A stretch of DNA of 45,446 nt. It comes from Syntrophobacterales bacterium. GTDB lineage: Bacteria; Desulfobacterota; Syntrophia; Syntrophales; UBA2192. The position numbers were made by a program, and so were the translations under genes. Where the stretch lies: assembly GCA_018053845.1 (NCBI GenBank), contig JAGPKU010000004.1, forward strand, positions 8,425 through 53,870. Direction: 5' to 3'. The notes beneath the pieces were generated by a model. That model searched no databases, was not told where the DNA came from, and saw nothing but the letters and a program-made list of their open reading frames with translations. Of this stretch, positions 12,438-28,847 are shown piece after piece (the stretch's first letter is position 1; each line of letters begins with the position of its first letter).

Positions 12438-14078
12438 TCAGTACAGGACGATCCTTCGCTTCCATCTCTCGCCGATGTAGGCGCAGAGCCCGCGATCCGC
12501 GTCGTCGGACACGAGGTAGAGCGTTCCTTCCGCCGTGGCGATCCTGAAGGCTCTGAGCGTGAGCTCCCACGGGGGCGGCTCCTCGTCCCCCGGCGGCCGG
12601 AAATCCTCGGTCACGGCGGCGTAGGGGACATCGAGCCCCCCGAGCACCTTCTCGACGACGGTCTTCCTGTCGTCGGTGCCCGCGATCTGGATCAGCTCCA
12701 TCCCGCCCTCACGGAGCCCGACCCGGCGGGGCGGCGCCATCTCCCCGAAGTGGATGATCGCCGTCCGGGTTCCGATGCGGACGGTGTAATCCGCGCGCAG
12801 CACCGGGGGTCCCCCCTCCTTCGAGGCGTCCTCGACGGGGATCGGCTGATCCGCCCTGTAGGCGTACCCCAGCGCGTCGAGCAGCGACCCGACGAACACC
12901 CGGTTGCCGCCTCCCCGTAGGACGGCGGGTTCGGCGGGGGCCGGGGCCGCCTGCCGCTCGCGGAGGGACCCGCTGCCTTCTTCGATCTCGATCACGGCGA
13001 GCCCTTTGCCCTCGGCATACCGCGCGACGGGCTCCGGGATCGGCGGGGTCCGTGCCGGCGCCCGGAGGATGCCGGCCAGGAGGTGCTCCCCGCCGTCGGC
13101 CGACCGGCGCACGAGGACCCAATCCGCTCGGAGCCTGAGGCCCGCCGTGGCCCCCAGCTCCAGGGCCGTCGCGTTCCGGCGGAATGCGTACCGAGCGGAC
13201 GCGCCGAAGACGCCCTCCAGCACGGAGAAGAGACCGTCGGCCCCGGGGTCGTGCAGCACGGTGAAGTTCCCCCATCGGGCGCGCATGAGTGCGGCCGCCC
13301 CGTCGGGGATCCGGCGCCCGAAATCGAGAAAGATCCGGCTCCCGTCGGCAAGCTCCGCCATGGGGACATCGGCGCAGTCGACGGCCAGGTGTTCCGTCTC
13401 GGTCAGCGGGACGAAGTATTTGCCGCTGCGGACGAGCTCTCCCCCCGAGCGCCCAACGACCGCCGCGATGACGGCCAGTTCGCTTCCCGTCGGCTGGAAG
13501 GCCTTCGCGTCGACCCGCTCGGCCGCCCCTTCTTCCTGCGCCGCCGTCCCGGCGGGCTCGGCCGGCGCCCGGTCTTTCCGGGGCAGCAGCAGGGCCTGCC
13601 CGGGGTAGATCCGGTCCGGGTCGGAAAGACCGGGGTTGAGCTGCATGACCCGCCTGATCCACGCCGCCATCTCGCCTGCCGTGATGCCGAGCCGGTCATG
13701 GAGAATCCGCGACAGGGTGTCCCCCCGGTTGACGACGTAGGCCGGCCCGCCCGGGGTCGCGCCGAGGCGGGGCAGGGCGATCCTCTGGCCGGGATAGATC
13801 CGGTCGGGGTTGCGGATCTGGGGGTTGAGCCTCATGACCTGCCTGCGCACCGATGCCGATTGGGCCGCCGGCCTGCCGAGCTTGCGCCGGATGATCCTCG
13901 AGAGGCTGTCGCCCTTTTGCACGACGTAGACGGACGGGCTGTCCTTGGCCGCTGCCTTTTTTCTGAGGACCAGGTGGGCCGTGTCTTCCTGTGAAAGCGC
14001 ATCGGTGGAGATCGAAAGGAGGCCGAGCCCTGCCAGGGCGGTGAAGGCAAGAGTCAGGCGCAACGTCCGTGGATGCAT
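12438..14078 (-). CDS. Exported protein with two LysM domains
   Basis: 546 residues with a signal peptide (RLTLAFTALAGLGLLSIS). Two LysM peptidoglycan-binding domains follow: about residues 49-98 (VYVVQKGDSLSRII ... NPDRIYPGQRIALP) and 108-160 (AYVVNRGDTLSRIL ... DPDRIYPGQALLLP). The remaining 370 residues contain no domain I can name; they include beta-rich segments and two regions ending in IHFGEMAPP and YLVSDDADRG. LysM proteins of this shape in deltaproteobacteria are periplasmic and often form part of envelope or secretion machinery. The ATG at 14078 was chosen over the upstream ATG at 14099 because GGAGG precedes it and the signal peptide begins there. Confidence 0.82.
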   Translation of the reverse strand: MHPRTLRLTLAFTALAGLGLLSISTDALSQEDTAHLVLRKKAAAKDSPSVYVVQKGDSLSRIIRRKLGRPAAQSASVRRQVMRLNPQIRNPDRIYPGQRIALPRLGATPGGPAYVVNRGDTLSRILHDRLGITAGEMAAWIRRVMQLNPGLSDPDRIYPGQALLLPRKDRAPAEPAGTAAQEEGAAERVDAKAFQPTGSELAVIAAVVGRSGGELVRSGKYFVPLTETEHLAVDCADVPMAELADGSRIFLDFGRRIPDGAAALMRARWGNFTVLHDPGADGLFSVLEGVFGASARYAFRRNATALELGATAGLRLRADWVLVRRSADGGEHLLAGILRAPARTPPIPEPVARYAEGKGLAVIEIEEGSGSLRERQAAPAPAEPAVLRGGGNRVFVGSLLDALGYAYRADQPIPVEDASKEGGPPVLRADYTVRIGTRTAIIHFGEMAPPRRVGLREGGMELIQIAGTDDRKTVVEKVLGGLDVPYAAVTEDFRPPGDEEPPPWELTLRAFRIATAEGTLYLVSDDADRGLCAYIGERWKRRIVLY

Positions 14079-14220: not shown

Positions 14221-15411
14221 TTACAGGCCGCTCTTGAAGTTGTCCCGCATGAGCTCGCGGGCGATGATCATCCGGCGGATTTCGGAGGTGCCGGCGCCGA
14301 TTTCCCACAGCTTCTGATCCAGGAAGTGACGGGTCACGCCGTACTCGGTGCAGTAGCCGTAACCGCCGTGGATCTGGATGGCGTCGAGACCGATCTTCGT
14401 GCCCATCTCGCCGCAGTACAGCAGGGAGGCCGCGGCCATGCGGTCGAGGTCCGTGCCCTTGCCGCCGGACTTGTTCTCGAGCGAGTCGCAGTAGGCGGCG
14501 GCGCTGTAGGCCATCCAGCGGGAGGCCTTGTAGCCGCAGTACATGTTCGCCAGCTTCTCCTGGATCGATTGGAAGGAGGCGATGGGCTTGCCGAACTGGA
14601 CGCGCTCCTGGGCGTACTTCAGGGAGAGCTCGAGGCAGCTCCGCATCGAGCCGAGGGTGCAACCCGACAGGGTGATGCGCTCGGTGCAGAGGCCGGAGGT
14701 CAGAACGGCGACGCCCTTGTTGAGACCGCCGATCAGGTTCTCTTCCGGAAGCTCCATGTCCTCGAAGGTCACGAGACCCGTGGGGGAGGTCCTCATGCCC
14801 CACTTCTTGATCTTCTCACAGGACCAGCCCTTCGTCTTCTTGGGATAGCAGAAGAAGGTGGAGATGCCGTGGGGACCCTTGTCGGGGTCCGTCTTGGCGT
14901 AGAACACCATGAAGTCGGCGACGGGTCCGTTGGTGATGAAAATCTTGCTGCCGTTGATGACCCACTTGTCGCCCTTCTTGATGGCGCGGGTCTTCATGCT
15001 CATCGCGTCGGAACCGGCGTTGGGCTCGGTGATGCCGAGGCAGCCGATGTACTCGCCCGTGCAGGACTTGGGCAGGACGTCCATTCTCTGCTTTTCCGTC
15101 GCGTTGCGGCGGAAGTTGTCGAAGCACAGCGTCTGGCTGGCGCCGACGGTCATGGAGAGGGCGTTGCTCACGCGGGCGATCGTCTCGTAGGCCAGCAGGG
15201 TCTCCACGTAGCCCATGGCGGCTCCGCCGTACTTCTCCTCGAACACGATGCCGTTGATGCCGAGATTGCCGGTCTCCCTGAAGAGGCCCTCGGGCATCAC
15301 GTCCGCTTCGTACGCGTGTTCCATCTGGGGCTCGAGCCAGCTCACCGCCCATTTGTACACGCTGTCCTCGAGCATCTTTTGTTCTTCGGTGAAATTGAAA
15401 TTCAACGCCAT
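14221..15411 (-). CDS. Acyl-CoA dehydrogenase, isovaleryl-CoA dehydrogenase-like active site
   Basis: 396 residues, a standard FAD-dependent acyl-CoA dehydrogenase that introduces an alpha-beta double bond and passes electrons to electron-transferring flavoprotein. Signatures: GCLGITEPNAGSD (124-135) and INGSKIFITNG (152-162) around the FAD/substrate site, and ERVQFGKPIASFQ. The position that in medium- and short-chain enzymes holds the catalytic glutamate (Y-E-G-T) reads EIGAGTSEIRR, as in isovaleryl-CoA dehydrogenase. There the base lies on another helix, and Glu244 (CTERITLSG) is at the matching place here. Branched-chain or cyclic acyl-CoA substrates are therefore more likely than straight-chain ones (inference). 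The ATG at 15411 follows GGGAGG. The neighbouring AtoE-type transporter suggests a role in short-chain acid use. Confidence 0.88.
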   Translation of the reverse strand: MALNFNFTEEQKMLEDSVYKWAVSWLEPQMEHAYEADVMPEGLFRETGNLGINGIVFEEKYGGAAMGYVETLLAYETIARVSNALSMTVGASQTLCFDNFRRNATEKQRMDVLPKSCTGEYIGCLGITEPNAGSDAMSMKTRAIKKGDKWVINGSKIFITNGPVADFMVFYAKTDPDKGPHGISTFFCYPKKTKGWSCEKIKKWGMRTSPTGLVTFEDMELPEENLIGGLNKGVAVLTSGLCTERITLSGCTLGSMRSCLELSLKYAQERVQFGKPIASFQSIQEKLANMYCGYKASRWMAYSAAAYCDSLENKSGGKGTDLDRMAAASLLYCGEMGTKIGLDAIQIHGGYGYCTEYGVTRHFLDQKLWEIGAGTSEIRRMIIARELMRDNFKSGL

Positions 15412-15620
15412 AACCAACTACCTCCCTTTCTTAAAATTTGGCCCCAAGACGTGAATTACGCATGTTTCCTGTGCTTGCGCAATAGCGTGAGCCGCATGAT
15501 GTAAATCGCCTTGGGTGATCCTCTCTCTCTGTCTGTTCTCAGGCGTGGCGAAAGAACGGCGGGTCCGGTATGGTCAAGCGTCCTGCAACCGGCGCTCGAG
15601 TGTCCCGATAAAACGCGTGA

Positions 15621-15649
15621 CATATACCGAATTGCAGCCCGTCTGTCAA
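15621..15649 (-). promoter_or_regulatory. Sigma70 promoter for the acyl-CoA dehydrogenase gene
   Basis: On the minus strand TTGACA (15649-15644), 17-bp spacer, TATATG (15626-15621). It gives a 5' leader of about 200 nt before the ATG at 15411; I see no obvious riboswitch in the leader. The stretch 15650-15787 holds nothing I can assign. Confidence 0.75.
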
Positions 15650-15787
15650 GGTAAAAACGGCGCTGGTCGGGGAATTTCGGCGACGCGTCATGGGGCTTTC
15701 CTCCCGACGCGGGGGAGCCTGCGGGCAGCCGAACATTCAAAGGAATAAGAGGCCGGCTTCCGGCTGTTTCCGAACGCCGTGTTGTCT

Positions 15788-15887
15788 GTGCGATTTATGA
15801 ACATTAAGTTCGTATAACGCACGGCCGCCGAATGCCCTGCCTTGAGGAACTGCATGGAAACGAACATGATGAGTGCACAATTCGCAC
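15788..15887 (+). promoter_or_regulatory. Cluster of palindromic activator sites (GTGC-N7-GCAC) upstream of RNA 1
   Basis: Three sites with identical 7-base spacing: GTGC-N7-GAAC at 15788-15802, GTTC-N7-GCAC at 15808-15822, and the perfect GTGC-N7-GCAC at 15873-15887. They lie 140-240 bp upstream of a sigma54 promoter, a normal enhancer distance. The same motif occurs upstream of RNA 2 and beside the promoter of the sigma54-activator gene, so I infer it is the binding site of that activator. Confidence 0.6.
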
Positions 15888-16024
15888 GATTCGGGCCCGC
15901 CGCGCCGCGGCGCCGAAGCGGCGAATCCTGTGCCGTTCCTGCCGCATATCGATCAATGCATTGAAATCATTCAACTATATTTTGATGAGCCCTTCGCGGT
16001 TTTTTGTTGCCTTCAGCTCTTTCA

Positions 16025-16040
16025 TGGCACCATTATTGCT
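16025..16040 (+). promoter_or_regulatory. Sigma54 (-24/-12) promoter of RNA 1
   Basis: TGGCACCATTATTGCT: GG at 16026-16027 and GC at 16038-16039 with the mandatory 10-base gap, and an almost complete match to TGGCAC-N5-TTGCT. Predicted transcription start near 16051. Confidence 0.8.
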
Positions 16041-16050
16041 AATTTTCATC

Positions 16051-16305
16051 GTCGAAGCGCATCAGGAAATACCCAAGACCCTGACAGACCCCCAAATTTC
16101 CTGGCGCTTGTTTTGAAAGAGGCCGATCGGTGGATGGTTTTGGTCCCTCCTTTCCATCCACCGATGCCCTTTCAAAGGGGCCCGCCGGAATGTCCGTCAT
16201 CAAACGCCACATCGACCACAGGATCCGGCGCTGCCTGTCCAACCCGGCGATCCTCCTCCTCGCGCTGGTCTACCTCTCTTCCGCAAGGCGGCCGAAGGCC
16301 GTTTT
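16051..16305 (+). ncRNA. Candidate sigma54-dependent structured RNA 1 (anti-Shine-Dalgarno hairpin)
   Basis: No convincing gene occupies this region. From the predicted start the RNA folds into stem P1 (16055-16070 with 16096-16109: AAGCGC/GCGCTT and CAGGAAAT/ATTTCCTG, one AU bulge) enclosing a C-rich loop with ACCC repeats. Hairpin P2 (16112-16176) follows at once: an 8-bp outer stem TTTGAAAG/CTTTCAAA, then GGC/GCC, then a perfect 12-bp stem ATCGGTGGATGG/CCATCCACCGAT closed by the 16-nt loop UUUUGGUCCCUCCUUU. The loop resembles the 3' tail of 16S rRNA. A weak terminator follows (CGGCC-GAA-GGCCG-TTTT, 16289-16305); otherwise the strong bidirectional one at 16403-16439 would end it. A 47-codon reading frame from the ATG at 16190, with AAAGGGG before it, could make this a leader instead of a pure RNA. 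The relative at 26902-27166 supports an RNA function. Confidence 0.6.
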
Positions 16306-16402
16306 CCCCCGCTGGGCGGTCCGGGCCCTGTAACCCGTTCCCCTGCTTTTCATGATGAAAGGCTCGAGAGTTTCGTCGTGTCGACGTCCCGTTGCGGGCA
16401 AC

Positions 16403-16439
16403 GGAAAAAAGCCGGCCCCGAAGGGAGCCGGCTTTTTCC
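16403..16439. terminator. Bidirectional terminator between RNA 1 and the transporter gene
   Basis: AAAAAAGCCGGC (16405-16416) pairs with GCCGGCTTTTT (16427-16437). It has a U-run in both directions and serves the minus-strand transporter gene and probably RNA 1 on the plus strand. Confidence 0.85.
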
Positions 16440-16464
16440 GCGGATCCGCCGAATGGCGGAGAGA

Positions 16465-17820
16465 TTACATGACCCCGAAGCCGAGGAGCAGGGCGAAGAA
16501 CGTCAGGATGGCCCCCCACCACAGGAGGATCATCGTCGTGTAGCCCATGATGTCCTTGGCCGATAGTCCCGCCAGTCCCAGGAGCGGCAGGGCCCAGAAG
16601 GGCTGGATCATGTTCGTCCACTGGTCGCCCCAGGCCACCATCATGGCGGACTTGACCATGTCGATGTTCATCAGTTTGGCCGCCTCGACGGTGATCGGTC
16701 CCTGGACGGCCCACTGGCCGCCGCCGGAGGGCACGAACAGGTTGATCACGCCGGCGGACCAGAACTGGAACATGTAGAAGGTCTGCGGGGTCGAGACGGC
16801 CACGAACCACCCCGCGATGACCTTCGCGAGACCCGTGCCGATCATCATCCCCATGATCCCGCCGTAGAGGGGGAACTGCAGGGCGATGCCGCCGGCGGAG
16901 CGGATGGCGATGTTCATGGCCCGGACGTAGTTGATGGGCTTGCGGTGCAGGATCACGCCGAGGACGAAGAACAGGAAGATGACGACGTTGAGGTTCAGGT
17001 CGAAGCCCTTCTTGATGAAGTGGTTGACCAGGTAAACGACGCCGAGGGCGGCGAAGATGAAGTTGATGATGTAGCTGTGGTCGACCCGCTCGGCCAGCGT
17101 CGGGTTGGCGGGCCTCTCGACCTCGACCGTCTCGCCGAGCAGTTCTTTCGCCCGCTCCGCGGTCAGGCCGATGGAATCCTCTTCCCTGGGGTGCATGAAG
17201 TAAAAGAGGAACGGGATGCTGAACAGCATGATCGCGACGGGGATCATGTTCCAGGAAGCGAGGATGGTGTCGGAAATGGGCACGATCTTGCCGGTGACCT
17301 TCTCGATCAGGTTCAGATTGGATTTGGGCGTCGCAAGCAGCAGGGGGACGGAGCCGGAGAACCCCATGTGCCAGATGCCCAGGGAGCTGTAGGCCGCGGC
17401 GATCAGCAGGGGGAAATCCGACTTGCGCTGCCGGTTGGCGATCTCGAGGGCGAGGAAGCCGCCCACGATGAGGCCGAAGCCCCAGTTGACCCAGCCCGCC
17501 AGGCTCGCGACGAAAGCCGTGATCATGGCGCCCTTGACGGGGGTCGTCGCCATGGCGGCGATCCCGTTGAGGATCTTGCTGACCGGCGGGGTGAGCGCCA
17601 GGCAGTATCCCGTCACGAGGATCAGGATCATCTGCATGGCGAAGGCGATGATGCCGTAGATGCCGTCCCCCCACGTCGTGATCACCTTCATGATGTCCGA
17701 CGGGGTGAAGGCAAGCGCCAGGACGGCCGTCAACAGGGTCAGCAGGATGGCGAACAGGTACGCGTCAGGCAGGTAGTGCCGCATGAAGTAGGTGAAAAAA
17801 CCAGCCAATCTTCTGATCAT
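16465..17820 (-). CDS. atoE: Short-chain fatty acid transporter (AtoE family)
   Basis: 451 residues, with at least ten hydrophobic membrane segments. Characteristic family stretches include WVNWGFGLIVGG, the LPDAYLFAILLTLL region of the first helix, NLFVPSGGGQWAVQGP and the C-terminal QPFWALPLLGLAGL. AtoE-type proteins import short-chain acids such as acetoacetate or butyrate, or possibly export them in syntrophs, at the cytoplasmic membrane. The ATG at 17820 was chosen over the upstream in-frame start at 17841 because an excellent ribosome-binding site (AAAGGAGG) lies before it. That site, GGAAAGGAGG (17837-17828 on the minus strand), is perfectly complementary to ten bases of the loop and closing stem of RNA 1 and RNA 2. 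Together with the acyl-CoA dehydrogenase it points to short-chain acid metabolism. I see no convincing promoter in the 320-base gap upstream. Confidence 0.88.
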   Translation of the reverse strand: MIRRLAGFFTYFMRHYLPDAYLFAILLTLLTAVLALAFTPSDIMKVITTWGDGIYGIIAFAMQMILILVTGYCLALTPPVSKILNGIAAMATTPVKGAMITAFVASLAGWVNWGFGLIVGGFLALEIANRQRKSDFPLLIAAAYSSLGIWHMGFSGSVPLLLATPKSNLNLIEKVTGKIVPISDTILASWNMIPVAIMLFSIPFLFYFMHPREEDSIGLTAERAKELLGETVEVERPANPTLAERVDHSYIINFIFAALGVVYLVNHFIKKGFDLNLNVVIFLFFVLGVILHRKPINYVRAMNIAIRSAGGIALQFPLYGGIMGMMIGTGLAKVIAGWFVAVSTPQTFYMFQFWSAGVINLFVPSGGGQWAVQGPITVEAAKLMNIDMVKSAMMVAWGDQWTNMIQPFWALPLLGLAGLSAKDIMGYTTMILLWWGAILTFFALLLGFGVM

Positions 17821-18021
17821 CGGGAAACCTCCTTTCCACAACTCCGGTGGTGCCCTGCAGCCCGGCCGCAGCCGTGCGGGGCCGTGTGCTGATGAATGAT
17901 GAAGATGGACGATAACGGAATCTATGCGTCAGGAGGCGCTGCCGGCAAGGATGCAGCCCCTCCTTGTACACCCCGGGCAGAACGAGCAGGCCGTCCGGAA
18001 ATCTCCGGATCCGTGATGGAA

Positions 18022-22215: not shown

Positions 22216-22277
22216 GCAGACCCCGATCGGGCCGTGAGGGAAAGGACTGCCTGCGTCCCGCAGGCGGCGTGGAAGCC

Positions 22278-24308
22278 ATGGCAAGAGTCAAGCTCTCGAG
22301 AATCCGGAACATCGGCGTCGTCGCCCATATCGACGCGGGCAAGACGACCGTCACGGAACGGATCCTCTACTACACGGGCAAGTCCTACAAGATGGGCGAG
22401 GTGCATGACGGGGAAGCCGTCATGGACTGGATGCCCCAGGAGCAGGAGCGGGGGATCACCATCACCTCCGCTGTGACGACCTGCGACTGGAGAAACCACG
22501 AGATCCACATCATCGACACGCCGGGGCACGTCGATTTCACGATCGAGGTGGAGCGCAGCCTCCGGGTCCTCGACGGCGCCGTGGTCGTCTTCTCCGCCGT
22601 GGAAGGGGTCGAGCCCCAGTCCGAGACCGTCTGGCACCAGGCCGACAAGTACGGCGTCCCCAAGATCGCCTTCATCAACAAGATGGACCGCATCGGGGCG
22701 GACTTCTTCAACGCCGTGCAGATGATGAGGGAGCGCTTCGCCTCCGTGCCGCTGCCCGTCCAGGTGCCCCTCGGGGAAGCGGAGAACTTCCGGGGGATCG
22801 TCGACCTGGTCCGCATGCGTCTCATCACGTGGCAGGAAAACACCCTGGGGGCGGCCTTCGACGTCTCGGAGATCCCCGCGGACTTCCGGGCCGAGGCCGA
22901 GACCCGGCGGGACAATCTGCTGGAAACGCTCGCCGAGGTCGACGACGAGATCGCCGAGAAATACCTCGGCGAGGTGCCCGTCACGGAGGCCGAGCTCGTC
23001 CGGGCGATCCGCCGGGCCACCGTGTCCCTGAAGATCGTCCCCGTCCTGTGCGGCACGGCGCTGCGCAACAAGGGGATCCAGCCTCTCCTGGATGCCGTCG
23101 TCGACTACCTGCCGTCGCCGGAGGACATCCCGCCCGTCAAGGGCGTCAACCCCGTGACGAAAGCCGAGGAGACGCGCGCGGCCAGCGACAAGGAGCCCTT
23201 CTCGGCGCTCGCCTTCAAGGTCTCCATGATGGAGGGGCGGAAGATCACCTTCGTGCGCATCTACTCGGGGCTCTTGAAGGCGGGCGACGAGGTCTTCAAC
23301 GCCGCGAAGGGCAGGAAGGAAAAAGTGGCCCGCCTGCTGAAGATGCACGCCAACAAGCGCGAGCGCATCGACGTGGCCGGGGCGGGCGACATCATCGCCG
23401 TGGCGGGCCTCAAGGAGGCGCAGACGGGCGACACCCTCTGCAGCGAGTCGAAGCCCCTCGTCCTGGAGTCCATCGAGTTCTATGACCCCGTGATCAGCCA
23501 GGCCGTCGAGGCCAAGACCCCGGCCGACCAGGAGAAGCTGCCCGAGGTGCTCGCGAAGATCAGCGAGGAAGACCCGACGCTGAAGGTCAAGTACGACGAG
23601 GAAACCGCCCAGACGATCATCTCGGGGATGGGCGAGCTGCACCTGGAGATCGTCGTGGACCGCCTCCTGAGGGAGTACAACGTCCACGTCAACACGGGAA
23701 AGCCGCGCGTGGTCTACCGCGAGACGATCCGGAAGGCCGTGGAGGCCGAGGGCCGCTTCGAGCGGGACCTCGGCGAGAAGAAGCACTTCGGCCATGTGAA
23801 GCTCGTCCTCGAGCCGTTGCCGAGAGGCTACGGGATCCAGATCCGCAACGAGCTGCCTGCCGAGAGCATCCCCCCGGAATACCATCCCGTCATCGAGGAG
23901 TCCCTCGGCGAGGCGGTGATGAGCGGCATCGTGGCGGGCTACCCCGTGCTGGATGTCCGGGTCCGCATCACGGGGGGGTCCTACAGGGAAGGCGAGGCCT
24001 CCTCGGTGGGTTACAGGATCGCCGCGGCGACGGCCTTCCGGGACGGCTGTACCAAGGCCGATCCCGTTCTCCTGGAGCCGATCATGCGGGTGGACGTCCT
24101 GACGCCGAGGGACTTCATGGGCGAGGTCATCGGCGATCTCAACGCGCGCAAGGGCGAGGTCGAATCCGTCAACCCCAAGGGGCCCGTCACGGAGATCCGG
24201 GCGAATGTCCCCCTCCGTTCGCTCTTCGGCTACTCGACGGATCTGCGCTCGGCCACCCAGGGCAGGGCCGTCTTCACCATGCAGTTCCTCCGCTACGACA
24301 CGGCCTAG
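22278..24308 (+). CDS. fusA: Elongation factor G (FusA-type translational GTPase)
   Basis: 676 residues. GTPase motifs are all present: G1 [10 protein letters not shown]2 around RGITITSA, G3 DTPGHVD, G4 NKMD and G5 CGTAL. The C-terminal domains II-V follow, with [15 protein letters not shown] at the start of domain III/IV and [14 protein letters not shown] near the end. EF-G moves tRNAs and mRNA through the ribosome. The gene is not in a str operon (no rpsL, rpsG or tuf nearby), so it is probably a second, stand-alone paralogue (EF-G2 type), some of which work in ribosome recycling; this is inference from context. The ATG at 22278 is preceded by a modest GGA site. Confidence 0.92.
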
Positions 24309-24422: not shown

Positions 24423-24548
24423 CCGCAAGCAAGCACATTCATGACGGAGCGGTCGCATGGGAATTTGCGGGAATGCCTTCCTCCCGGTTTGACCTCCTCG
24501 GCCCGATTCCCTAAACCCGATACCCAAGACCCGAAGGACGGTGGACTC

Positions 24549-26702
24549 ATGTCGCGCATCATCGAGCAAGGCGGAACGATCCCCGCACCCCCCGTTCGAA
24601 CTTCCTCCGCGTTCAGCATCGACAAGGACAAGCTGATCAAAGGGATCTACCGGATCAGCACCTTCCTGACAGCCCCCTCCAGCGTCGAGGACATCCTGGG
24701 CAAGATCCTCGACGAGGTCGTCGACTCCATGGGGTTTGACCGCGGGATCATCCTTCTGCTCGACGAGGCCCGGGAGAACCTCTACACGCGGGTGGTGAAG
24801 AACTACAGCGAGGAGGAGACCCGGAGGGCCTTCTCGGTGCATTTGAATTTGAAAAAGCACGACAGCTTCGAGACCCGCGTGGCCAAGACGGGCCATTACA
24901 TCGCCCTTGAGGATTCGGAGACGGACCCCCGCACAACGGAGACGGACCGGAAGATCTCCGCCTTCTACAAGCGCGGCTCCACGTTCTATGCCCCCCTGAA
25001 GATCGAGGAGGATGTCATCGGCATCATCGCCGTTTGGACCAAGGAGAAATCCCGTTTCTCCCCCGACGAGATCGAGATCCTGCTCACCTTCGCCAACCAG
25101 GTGAGCATCATCATCCACATCACGCGCCTCTTCGAGATCAACCGAGAGAAGATCGATCAGCTGCTCATCCTCCAGGAGGCCGTCTCGGGCCTGAATTCCA
25201 CTTACTCGATCGAGCGCATCCACGAGATCCTGATCCGCAGCGCCCTGAGGATCGGCAAGGCCGAGAAGGCCCTGATCTATTTTCTCGACATCGAGAAGAA
25301 CCGGGTCTTCATCAATGACGGCGAGCGCGGGTTCATCGACGACCGGAACGAGTACGGCGACCGGGTCGGCCGGACGATCATCCGCAGGGCGATGGACAGC
25401 GATGCCATCACCGTCCGGCAGCCCGGCGGGGAGGAAGACGACGCCGTGCCGCTCTACGAGGGCTACCCCTGCGAGGTGGCCATTCCCCTGAAGGTCAAGG
25501 ACCGGTTCAGGGGGGTGCTGCTGCTGGCGATGAAGGCGGGGGTGTACTCCCGCGACCAGATCAACGTCCTGGACATCCTCGTCAACAATGCCGCCACGTC
25601 CTACGACAGCGCCATCATGCACTCCATGCTCTCCATCGAGGCCAAGTCGCTCAAGACGGAGGTGGAAAAACTCAAGGAGCGGGAAGACTTCCTCCTGGGG
25701 TTCCACAACATCCTCGGCAAATCGAAGAAGATGGTCGGGATCTTCCACGTCATCGAGGAAGTGGCCAAGCACGACACCAATATCCTCATCCAGGGCGAGA
25801 GCGGCACCGGGAAGGAACTCGTGTCGCGCGCCATCCACCGGCAGAGCCAGCGCCACGAGAAGCGCTTCGTCGACGTCAACTGCGCGGCGATCCCCGGGAC
25901 CCTCCTGGAAAGCGAGCTGTTCGGCTACGAAGCCGGGGCGTTCACCGATGCGCGGAAGCGCAAGATCGGCCTGCTGGAATACGCCAGCGGGGGGACGCTG
26001 TTCCTCGACGAGATCGGCGACATGAGCCTGCCGTTGCAGGCGAAATTTCTGCGGATGCTCGAGGACGGCTACATCCGCCGCCTCGGGGGCAACGAGTCCA
26101 TCCCGGTCGACGTGCGGTTCATCTTCGCCACGAACCGGGACCTCTCGAAGATGGTTGCGGAGGGCTCCTTCCGCGAGGACCTCTTCTACCGCATCAGCGT
26201 GGTGCCGATCATCCTGCCGCCCCTGCGGGAGCGTGGCGATGATTTGCTGCTGCTGGCGCGCAACTACCTGGAGGAGTTCAACCGCAAGTTCAACAAGAAG
26301 GTCAAGGGGTTCACGAAGGAGGCCGAGGAGATCCTCCGCCGGTATTCCTGGCCGGGAAACGTACGCGAGCTCAAGAACATCATCGAGCGGATCATGATCC
26401 TGCGCGACGTGGGACGATTCATCACGCCGGAGAACATCCCCGCCGAGATCAAGGCGTCGGCGGCCCAGGACCCTGTCGTGCAGCTCGATGAGCTGCTTCC
26501 GCTCACGTCGGCATCGGACCGGATCGACTACAAGCAGGCCGTCGACAGGCTCACCGGGAAAATCAAGGGGCGCATCCTCTCCCGCGCCCTGCAGTTGAGC
26601 GGGGGGAACAAGACCAGGGCGGCCCGGCTGCTGAACATTTCCCGGTACGCGCTGATCCGGGAGCTGAAAAAGGCGGGAAAGGAAGCCGAAACGGCCACTT
26701 AG
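24549..26702 (+). CDS. Sigma54-dependent transcriptional activator, GAF-GAF-AAA+-Fis
   Basis: 717 residues. Two GAF sensor domains (about 45-190 and 215-355) are joined by a coiled-coil linker (362-385) to a sigma54-interacting AAA+ domain. This carries Walker A GESGTGKE (416-423), the sigma54-contact loop, Walker B TLFLDEIGD (483-491) and the arginine-finger region FREDLFYRIS (541-550). A Fis-type helix-turn-helix closes the protein (SGGNKTRAARLLNISRYALIREL, 684-706). The contact loop reads GAFTDA (463-468) instead of the consensus GAFTGA. No phospho-receiver domain is present, so it probably senses a small ligand or redox state through the GAF domains. The ATG at 24549 follows AAGGA. It is flanked by GTGC-N7-GCAC palindromes on both sides and lies directly upstream of RNA 2, its likely target. 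Confidence 0.92.
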   Translation: MSRIIEQGGTIPAPPVRTSSAFSIDKDKLIKGIYRISTFLTAPSSVEDILGKILDEVVDSMGFDRGIILLLDEARENLYTRVVKNYSEEETRRAFSVHLNLKKHDSFETRVAKTGHYIALEDSETDPRTTETDRKISAFYKRGSTFYAPLKIEEDVIGIIAVWTKEKSRFSPDEIEILLTFANQVSIIIHITRLFEINREKIDQLLILQEAVSGLNSTYSIERIHEILIRSALRIGKAEKALIYFLDIEKNRVFINDGERGFIDDRNEYGDRVGRTIIRRAMDSDAITVRQPGGEEDDAVPLYEGYPCEVAIPLKVKDRFRGVLLLAMKAGVYSRDQINVLDILVNNAATSYDSAIMHSMLSIEAKSLKTEVEKLKEREDFLLGFHNILGKSKKMVGIFHVIEEVAKHDTNILIQGESGTGKELVSRAIHRQSQRHEKRFVDVNCAAIPGTLLESELFGYEAGAFTDARKRKIGLLEYASGGTLFLDEIGDMSLPLQAKFLRMLEDGYIRRLGGNESIPVDVRFIFATNRDLSKMVAEGSFREDLFYRISVVPIILPPLRERGDDLLLLARNYLEEFNRKFNKKVKGFTKEAEEILRRYSWPGNVRELKNIIERIMILRDVGRFITPENIPAEIKASAAQDPVVQLDELLPLTSASDRIDYKQAVDRLTGKIKGRILSRALQLSGGNKTRAARLLNISRYALIRELKKAGKEAETAT

Positions 26703-26709
26703 GAAGATA

Positions 26710-26811
26710 GTGCAAAATACGCACGATGCGTGCGAATCAAGAACGTCCGTGAAAGCGCCGATTTTCAGGTCTTGTTGAGGAATTGCCCGTCAAGGTGTGC
26801 GAATAAAGCAC
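26710..26811 (+). promoter_or_regulatory. Cluster of GTGC-N7-GCAC activator sites upstream of RNA 2
   Basis: Perfect sites at 26710-26724 (N7 = AAAATAC) and 26797-26811 (N7 = GAATAAA), plus GTGC-N7-GAAC at 26730-26744. They lie 65-165 bp upstream of the sigma54 promoter at 26876 and start 8 bases after the activator stop codon. Confidence 0.65.
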
Positions 26812-26875: not shown

Positions 26876-26891
26876 TGGCATCCTTATTGCT
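26876..26891 (+). promoter_or_regulatory. Sigma54 (-24/-12) promoter of RNA 2
   Basis: TGGCATCCTTATTGCT: GG at 26877-26878 and GC at 26889-26890 separated by exactly 10 bases. It matches the RNA 1 promoter at 13 of 16 positions. Predicted start near 26902. Confidence 0.8.
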
Positions 26892-26901
26892 AAATGTACA
26901 A

Positions 26902-27166
26902 GCGAGACCTTTGGATGACTGACCTTTAACATAAAGAGAGATAAAGAATTTATCGAATAGGAAAGGTAGATCCTCTCCAAAGGTCTCATAAAATAGACAC
27001 CCAGCAACCATGATCGTGCTTTAGGTTTGCGAATCGGCGGATGGTTTTTGGTTCCCTCCTTTCCATCCGCCGACCCCCTGAAAGAAAAGGGAGGGGGTTG
27101 GGGAACAGCCTCTCTTTTTAACATAGAATTGGTGGATGAGCCGTCCGTCATCCACCAATTTTTTTT
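26902..27166 (+). ncRNA. Candidate sigma54-dependent structured RNA 2 (paralogue of RNA 1)
   Basis: About 265 nt with no plausible coding frame. A 5' stem starts at +3: GAGACCTTTGGA (26904-26915) pairs perfectly with TCCAAAGGTCTC (26976-26987), enclosing inner stems ACCTTT/AAAGGT and GATAAA-GAA-TTTATC. Hairpin P2 has an outer stem CTTTAGG/CCT(G)AAAG (27019-27025 with 27077-27084) and a perfect 11-bp inner stem TCGGCGGATGG/CCATCCGCCGA (27034-27044 with 27063-27073) closed by UUUUUGGUUCCCUCCUUU. Compared with RNA 1 the inner stem has a U-A to C-G compensatory change while the loop core is unchanged. The purine tract AAAAGGGAGGGGG (27083-27096) just downstream could pair with the loop. A strong terminator ends the RNA. 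By position and promoter it is the probable direct target of the activator encoded upstream. Confidence 0.7.
27127..27166 (+). terminator. Rho-independent terminator of RNA 2
   Basis: Perfect 13-bp stem AATTGGTGGATGA / TCATCCACCAATT (27127-27139 with 27148-27160) followed by a T-run to 27166. Confidence 0.92.
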
Positions 27167-27190
27167 ATCCAAAAAGCGGTGCGGGCGAAG

Positions 27191-28729: not shown

Positions 28730-28847
28730 CAGTTGTTTCACCTCCTTTTTCCTTTTTACCCTTGCGGGCAGTTGTTCTCAAGGGTCGGTTTATACTTGAT
28801 CGGGTGGGGCTTGTCAATAAAAAATATTGATGGTTAACCGTGCGGAA

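Follow-up and report, generated by a model that had tools for sequence, protein, structure and literature searches.

The cuckoo, alpha-r14 and CcsR small RNAs consist of several hairpins, each of which presents an anti-Shine-Dalgarno (anti-SD) loop (PMC10253847, PMC10746234). CcsR1-4 are cotranscribed behind the gene for a 71-aa protein (CcaF1) under an alternative sigma factor, with a Rho-independent terminator at the end (PMC10253847, PMC10746234), and the anti-SD loops of the alpha-r14 RNA NfeR1 pair with the initiation region of ntrB and thereby silence it (PMC10746234). An anti-SD signature is also found in the alpha-r8 RNAs SisA-D of Caulobacter, which are paralogous siblings (PMC12559287). 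In the papers that we found, multi-hairpin anti-SD-loop RNAs with a neighbouring small ORF are alphaproteobacterial, and our literature search returned no paper on anti-SD small RNAs of Syntrophus or Deltaproteobacteria. The Qrr RNAs of Vibrio, which are present in more than one copy, are sigma54-dependent and controlled by an NtrC-type activator, a quorum-sensing response regulator.

We identified a small RNA family, apparently undescribed, that is kept across the Syntrophales and has two copies, RNA1 and RNA2, in the 45,446-nt stretch of Syntrophobacterales DNA analyzed here (the window; Table 1). In design it is closest to NfeR1 (PMC10746234) and the ccaF1-CcsR operon (PMC10253847), and as in the cuckoo, alpha-r14 and CcsR RNAs the anti-SD motif lies in at least two hairpin loops of most Syntrophales homologues. 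However, the loop reads CCCUCCUUU and not the CCUCCUCCC of those alphaproteobacterial RNAs, sigma54 and a linked activator take the place of RpoH, the small ORF has no Pfam match and hence no DUF1127 as at the CIN1 locus, and the RNA itself has no Rfam match. Because loop motif, sigma factor, small protein and taxon all differ, the Syntrophales RNA would work like these RNAs without being a member of their family. It resembles the Qrr RNAs in the -24/-12 promoter upstream and in what appear to be a dedicated enhancer-binding protein and its sites, but is unrelated to them in sequence and structure (no Rfam match). In SisA-D the motif UUUCCUCCCU is single-stranded downstream of a weak hairpin (PMC12559287), whereas in the Syntrophales RNA the motif occupies the loop of a long stem.

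Table 1. Features of the RNA1 and RNA2 loci, in window coordinates
Feature	Position	Strand	Remarks
Enhancer dyad, RNA1	15872..15888	+	AGTGCACAATTCGCACG; 2 mismatches; upstream of RNA1
Sigma54 promoter, RNA1	16025..16040	+	TGGCACCATTATTGCT
RNA1 transcript, putative	16052..16440	+	ends inferred from sequence and fold, the 3' one with the least certainty (two-way terminator-like hairpin, common to atoE)
RNA1 hairpin 1	16126..16165	+	stable; 12-bp stem 16126-16137/16154-16165; loop 16138-16153; core CCCTCCTTT at 16145-16153
atoE-like short-chain fatty acid transporter	16465..17826	-	convergent with RNA1; Pfam SCFA_trans, 470 bits
atoE Shine-Dalgarno	17828..17837	-	GGAAAGGAGG; target site proposed in an earlier note; not specific
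EF-G paralogue (translation elongation factor G)	22269..24308	+	probable start 22278; NCBIfam TIGR00484, 916 bits
Sigma54 enhancer-binding protein, GAF-GAF-AAA+-Fis	24441..26702	+	probable start 24549; Pfam Sigma54_activat, GAF_2, HTH_8
Enhancer dyad, RNA2	26720..26734	+	CGCACGATGCGTGCG; upstream of RNA2
Sigma54 promoter, RNA2	26876..26891	+	TGGCATCCTTATTGCT
RNA2 transcript, putative	26903..27167	+	about 265 nt; ends inferred, sigma54 site to terminator
RNA2 hairpin 1	27034..27073	+	stable; 11-bp stem 27034-27044/27063-27073; anti-SD loop core CCCTCCTTT at 27054-27062; covariation
RNA2 terminator hairpin	27127..27166	+	position of hairpin 2; loop without CCCTCCTTT in the window genus

A conserved hairpin with an anti-SD loop

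The loop core CCCTCCTTT occurs exactly twice in the window, both times on the plus strand and within hairpin 1 of an RNA. An earlier note on this DNA had picked out the RNA1 hairpin, its CCCUCCUUU loop and a complement in the atoE leader, and all three lie where it placed them. Compared with shuffles, the fold has a z-score of -5.23 for a 101-nt piece around RNA1 and of -5.35 for RNA2 (sigma54 site through terminator). Elsewhere in the genome, no hairpin of exactly this kind turned up in a pattern search. A third BLAST match of the hairpin (13988-14022, minus strand), at the start of a LysM-domain gene, is without the loop and was attributed to chance. Apart from a tRNA, no Rfam family has a gathering match in the window; among the homologous loci, L050 has no match and L026 only chance-level ones.

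A covariance model of the hairpin detects the RNA in 86 of 155 class genomes, spread over about 20 families, and in none of the genomes sampled from the phylum outside the class. In a DNA search of 100 relatives 56 genomes matched, almost always at the hairpin, and a pattern scan of named genomes returned mainly Syntrophales, Syntrophaceae, Syntrophus and 'Deltaproteobacteria' records; a few unrelated records were taken as chance. RNA1 is found in 5 of 7 genomes of the window genus.

In 35 aligned hairpins, 6 of 12 stem pairs have changes on both sides. The covariation cells, which count sequences and not independent events, number 33 against a shuffled mean of 11, and 0 of 500 shuffles reach 33. 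A hairpin that persists in 86 genomes and covaries in this way goes far beyond what chance would give. From family to family (about 20 in all) the stem covaries and the loop core stays nearly the same, so the proposal in the earlier note, which staked itself on conservation of the loop in homologues, survives this comparison. A longer alignment contains three stem-loops, namely hairpin 1, a middle stem (CTGAGAGG/CCTCTCAG) and the terminator hairpin, in that order. The terminator hairpin usually repeats the loop of hairpin 1, the two hairpins of one RNA having the same loop on differing stems; this second loop of most homologues escaped the earlier note. In the window genus the loop of the terminator hairpin has lost the motif, and the window RNAs carry one anti-SD loop each.

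The 16S rRNA tail of one Syntrophales genome (G016), read by pattern, is GGATCACCTCCTTTCTAAGG. It has CCUCCUUUC in common with the loop, or CCTCCTTTC if the first stem base is counted, which bears out the earlier suggestion that the loop mimics this tail. The comparison already drawn there with the CCUCC-loop RNAs of Alphaproteobacteria is apt as a likeness.

Sigma54 promoters, enhancer dyads and a linked activator

A strict -24/-12 site lies upstream of 38 of 51 homologous RNAs, compared with 0 of 51 on the opposite strand and 1.1% of random pieces. Upstream of 25 of these 38 promoters there is a dyad of the GTGCGA-N3-TCGCAC type (background 1.7%). The window genome contains 17 strict sigma54 sites, against 1 for a reversed control, and of these, the sites of RNA1 and RNA2 alone have the dyad in place; at a further site there is a weaker dyad, close to the promoter. 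This restriction suggests that, at this stringency, both RNAs would be the main output of the activator, which is encoded just ahead of RNA2.

An activator orthologue, searched with the N-terminal half of the protein, is present in 77 of the 155 class genomes. Both activator and RNA occur in 76 genomes, the activator only in 1, the RNA only in 10 and neither in 68 (Fisher p about 1e-31, a statistic that ignores shared ancestry). In the sole activator-only genome (G051) the activator is near a contig end. In one family (f14), the only two genomes with the activator are the same two that have the RNA, and the two genes are adjacent. About 40 genomes of this family are without both, a clean joint loss or absence. 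From its sequence context, the RNA seems to be switched on by this dedicated adjacent activator gene. The ten RNA-bearing genomes in which no activator orthologue was detected count against this, as do some RNA copies with no convincing sigma54 site even by a relaxed pattern.

Some extra RNA copies lie in other surroundings. At L182, L188 and L189 the copy is beside an NtrC-type response regulator, accompanied at L188 by a PAS/Cache histidine kinase, and at L188 and L189 it is just upstream of an apparent leuS; a second sigma54 activator may use the RNA at these three loci. Copies at L183 and L194 are beside acyl-CoA enzymes (acetyl-CoA hydrolase/transferase, OB-fold ChsH2-like), and RNA1 itself sits between an acyl-CoA dehydrogenase gene and atoE (14221-17826). 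The extra copies by response regulator or acyl-CoA genes mostly have no convincing sigma54 site.

Pairing of the loop with atoE and other leaders

The earlier note pointed to the neighbouring gene atoE as a target of the RNA. The SD of atoE lies 7 nt ahead of the ATG, and the perfect match to loop and stem is indeed present, although its length is 11 nt (TGGAAAGGAGG), one above the 10 given before; 8 of the 11 pairs are in the loop and 3 require the stem to open. An 8-base match described at a second gene is also there (AAAGGAGG at 28741-28748, ahead of a second minus-strand ORF). RNA1 adjoins atoE in the congeners examined, and of 428 leaders around RNA loci none exceeds atoE in the length of its match and one other equals it. 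The match is 11 nt long in the window genome and in two others (G003, G004); G006 likewise has RNA1, but there the match is down to 9 nt.

We compared these values with the leaders of 298 genes from 400 kb of a congener, a set from a crude gene caller with starts chosen to favour SDs. At least 10 contiguous pairs to the loop are found in 1 of the 298 leaders and at least 9 in five. The duplex of the atoE leader with the loop has an energy of -16.5 kcal/mol, which 19 of the 298 leaders equal or better. By 16S pairing atoE is second of 299, and once the 16S energy is regressed out it ranks 153 of 298; the leader is thus a strong SD and not a demonstrated target. The exact 10-mer of the match occurs 27 times in the genome (two of these being the RNAs themselves) versus 16 times for a reversed control. 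Given these counts and a leader that is unremarkable when its SD strength is taken into account, the match is not clearly beyond chance. On the energy statistics we reject atoE as a specific target. RNA1 exists only in the window genus whereas the family is order-wide, and an RNA acting mainly on atoE is very improbable.

Complementarity of target leaders beyond the genome average, which the earlier note had set as a check, likewise reveals no outstanding target. On average, random pieces of the genome pair with the loop as well as the congener leaders do (-10.97 vs -10.95), so that in these leaders complementarity of the loop to SDs exists and is neither enriched nor specific. A class-wide search with the RNA-specific extension GGAAAGGAGGGA returned matches that include the RNAs themselves, with no excess separable from control. 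We also rejected self-repression, in which the loop would act on the leaders of the activator, EF-G or the small ORF, since their SDs are mostly weak and the matches at most 7 nt. Among neighbouring genes, no orthologue group goes beyond the matches expected from the SD; an hppA-type group is highest, with a mean of 7 nt.

This lack of target enrichment is what would be expected if the loop were a protein-binding or sponge site that sequesters either an RNA-binding protein or some G-rich partner RNA and did not pair with many SDs. The repeated identical loops resemble titrating RNAs, and the stem sequence near the loop, GGYGGRUGG, is conserved like the loop itself, which counts against repression by pairing since the loop alone could pair without a fixed stem. 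However, the fixed loop is the anti-SD sequence itself, for which a protein site has no need, and pairing is the mode of action of the known RNAs that have such loops. We therefore regard titration as unlikely.

Gene neighbourhood and proposed function

Across families the genes are ordered as EF-G paralogue, GAF-AAA+-Fis activator, intergenic region and RNA, the sigma54 promoter and enhancer dyad being followed often by a small ORF and then by the RNA hairpins. The EF-G paralogue is upstream of the activator in most loci, and genomes have 3-4 EF-G homologues. The paralogue beside the activator is conserved at 65-94%, even where the RNA has moved away; in G041, for example, the paralogue (G041:C1:1970927-1972942) adjoins the activator and the RNA is elsewhere. 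At L181 the RNA directly follows EF-G, the activator gene is missing and two RNAs are about 300 nt apart.

In 29 of 51 RNAs hairpin 1 is closely preceded by the end of the small ORF, which encodes about 70 aa and contains the motif FF[LV][SP] once or twice; the ORF would thus share the transcript in more than half of the homologues examined. A thirtieth match, in L001, was spurious and was removed. Like the sigma54 promoters and the activator and EF-G genes, this ORF was overlooked in the earlier note. Its indels are in frame and differences at the three codon positions number 198/133/229, fewest at position 2, which weakly suggests that it is coding. Four of these ORFs have no Pfam match up to E=1. 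The products of this ORF family, for instance at L009, L026 and L050, are highly charged.

Given its place just upstream of hairpin 1 and its codon pattern, the small protein might be the product that matters, with the hairpins serving to stabilise its mRNA as 3' untranslated region and terminator. However, the window genus, in which the ORF is absent, and others retain the loops without it, a stabilising hairpin needs no fixed loop, and the SD of the ORF is weak; this role for the hairpins is quite improbable.

Repression of translation initiation by a sigma54-induced anti-SD small RNA, working like the cuckoo and alpha-r14 RNAs, is the explanation that we favour, and with some reserve consider probable. 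What the sequences themselves show is a conserved structure with a fixed loop, the promoter and its enhancer sites, the recurring gene order and the joint occurrence of RNA and activator, and from these we infer transcription, activation, pairing and repression. RNA1 and RNA2 would be two copies of a sigma54-dependent RNA family of the Syntrophales, and the activator would turn on both by binding the GTGCGA-N3-TCGCAC dyads, which mostly precede the -24/-12 sites by about 140-170 bp. Each RNA would display its CCCUCCUUU loop on a rigid stem, in most homologues with a second loop on the terminator hairpin, and the loop would pair with strong SD sites of trans mRNAs and so block ribosome binding. 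Since the loop copies the sequence with which the ribosome docks on mRNA, and a dedicated activator gene is adjacent, the RNA probably tunes translation.

It is conceivable, though rather unlikely when all parts are taken together, that EF-G, the activator, the FFLS microprotein and the anti-SD RNA form a single translation-control module. The GAF domains would read an energy or starvation signal, sigma54 would make an abundant SD-masking RNA, and in slow-growing syntrophs this RNA would lower initiation on mRNAs with strong SDs.

If the Syntrophales have a second version of such RNAs under different regulation, this would point to a design that arose repeatedly or that is older than supposed. 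With a linked activator and an EF-G paralogue, both the signal and the purpose become testable, and the family would offer a way into post-transcriptional control in syntrophs, among them Syntrophus aciditrophicus.
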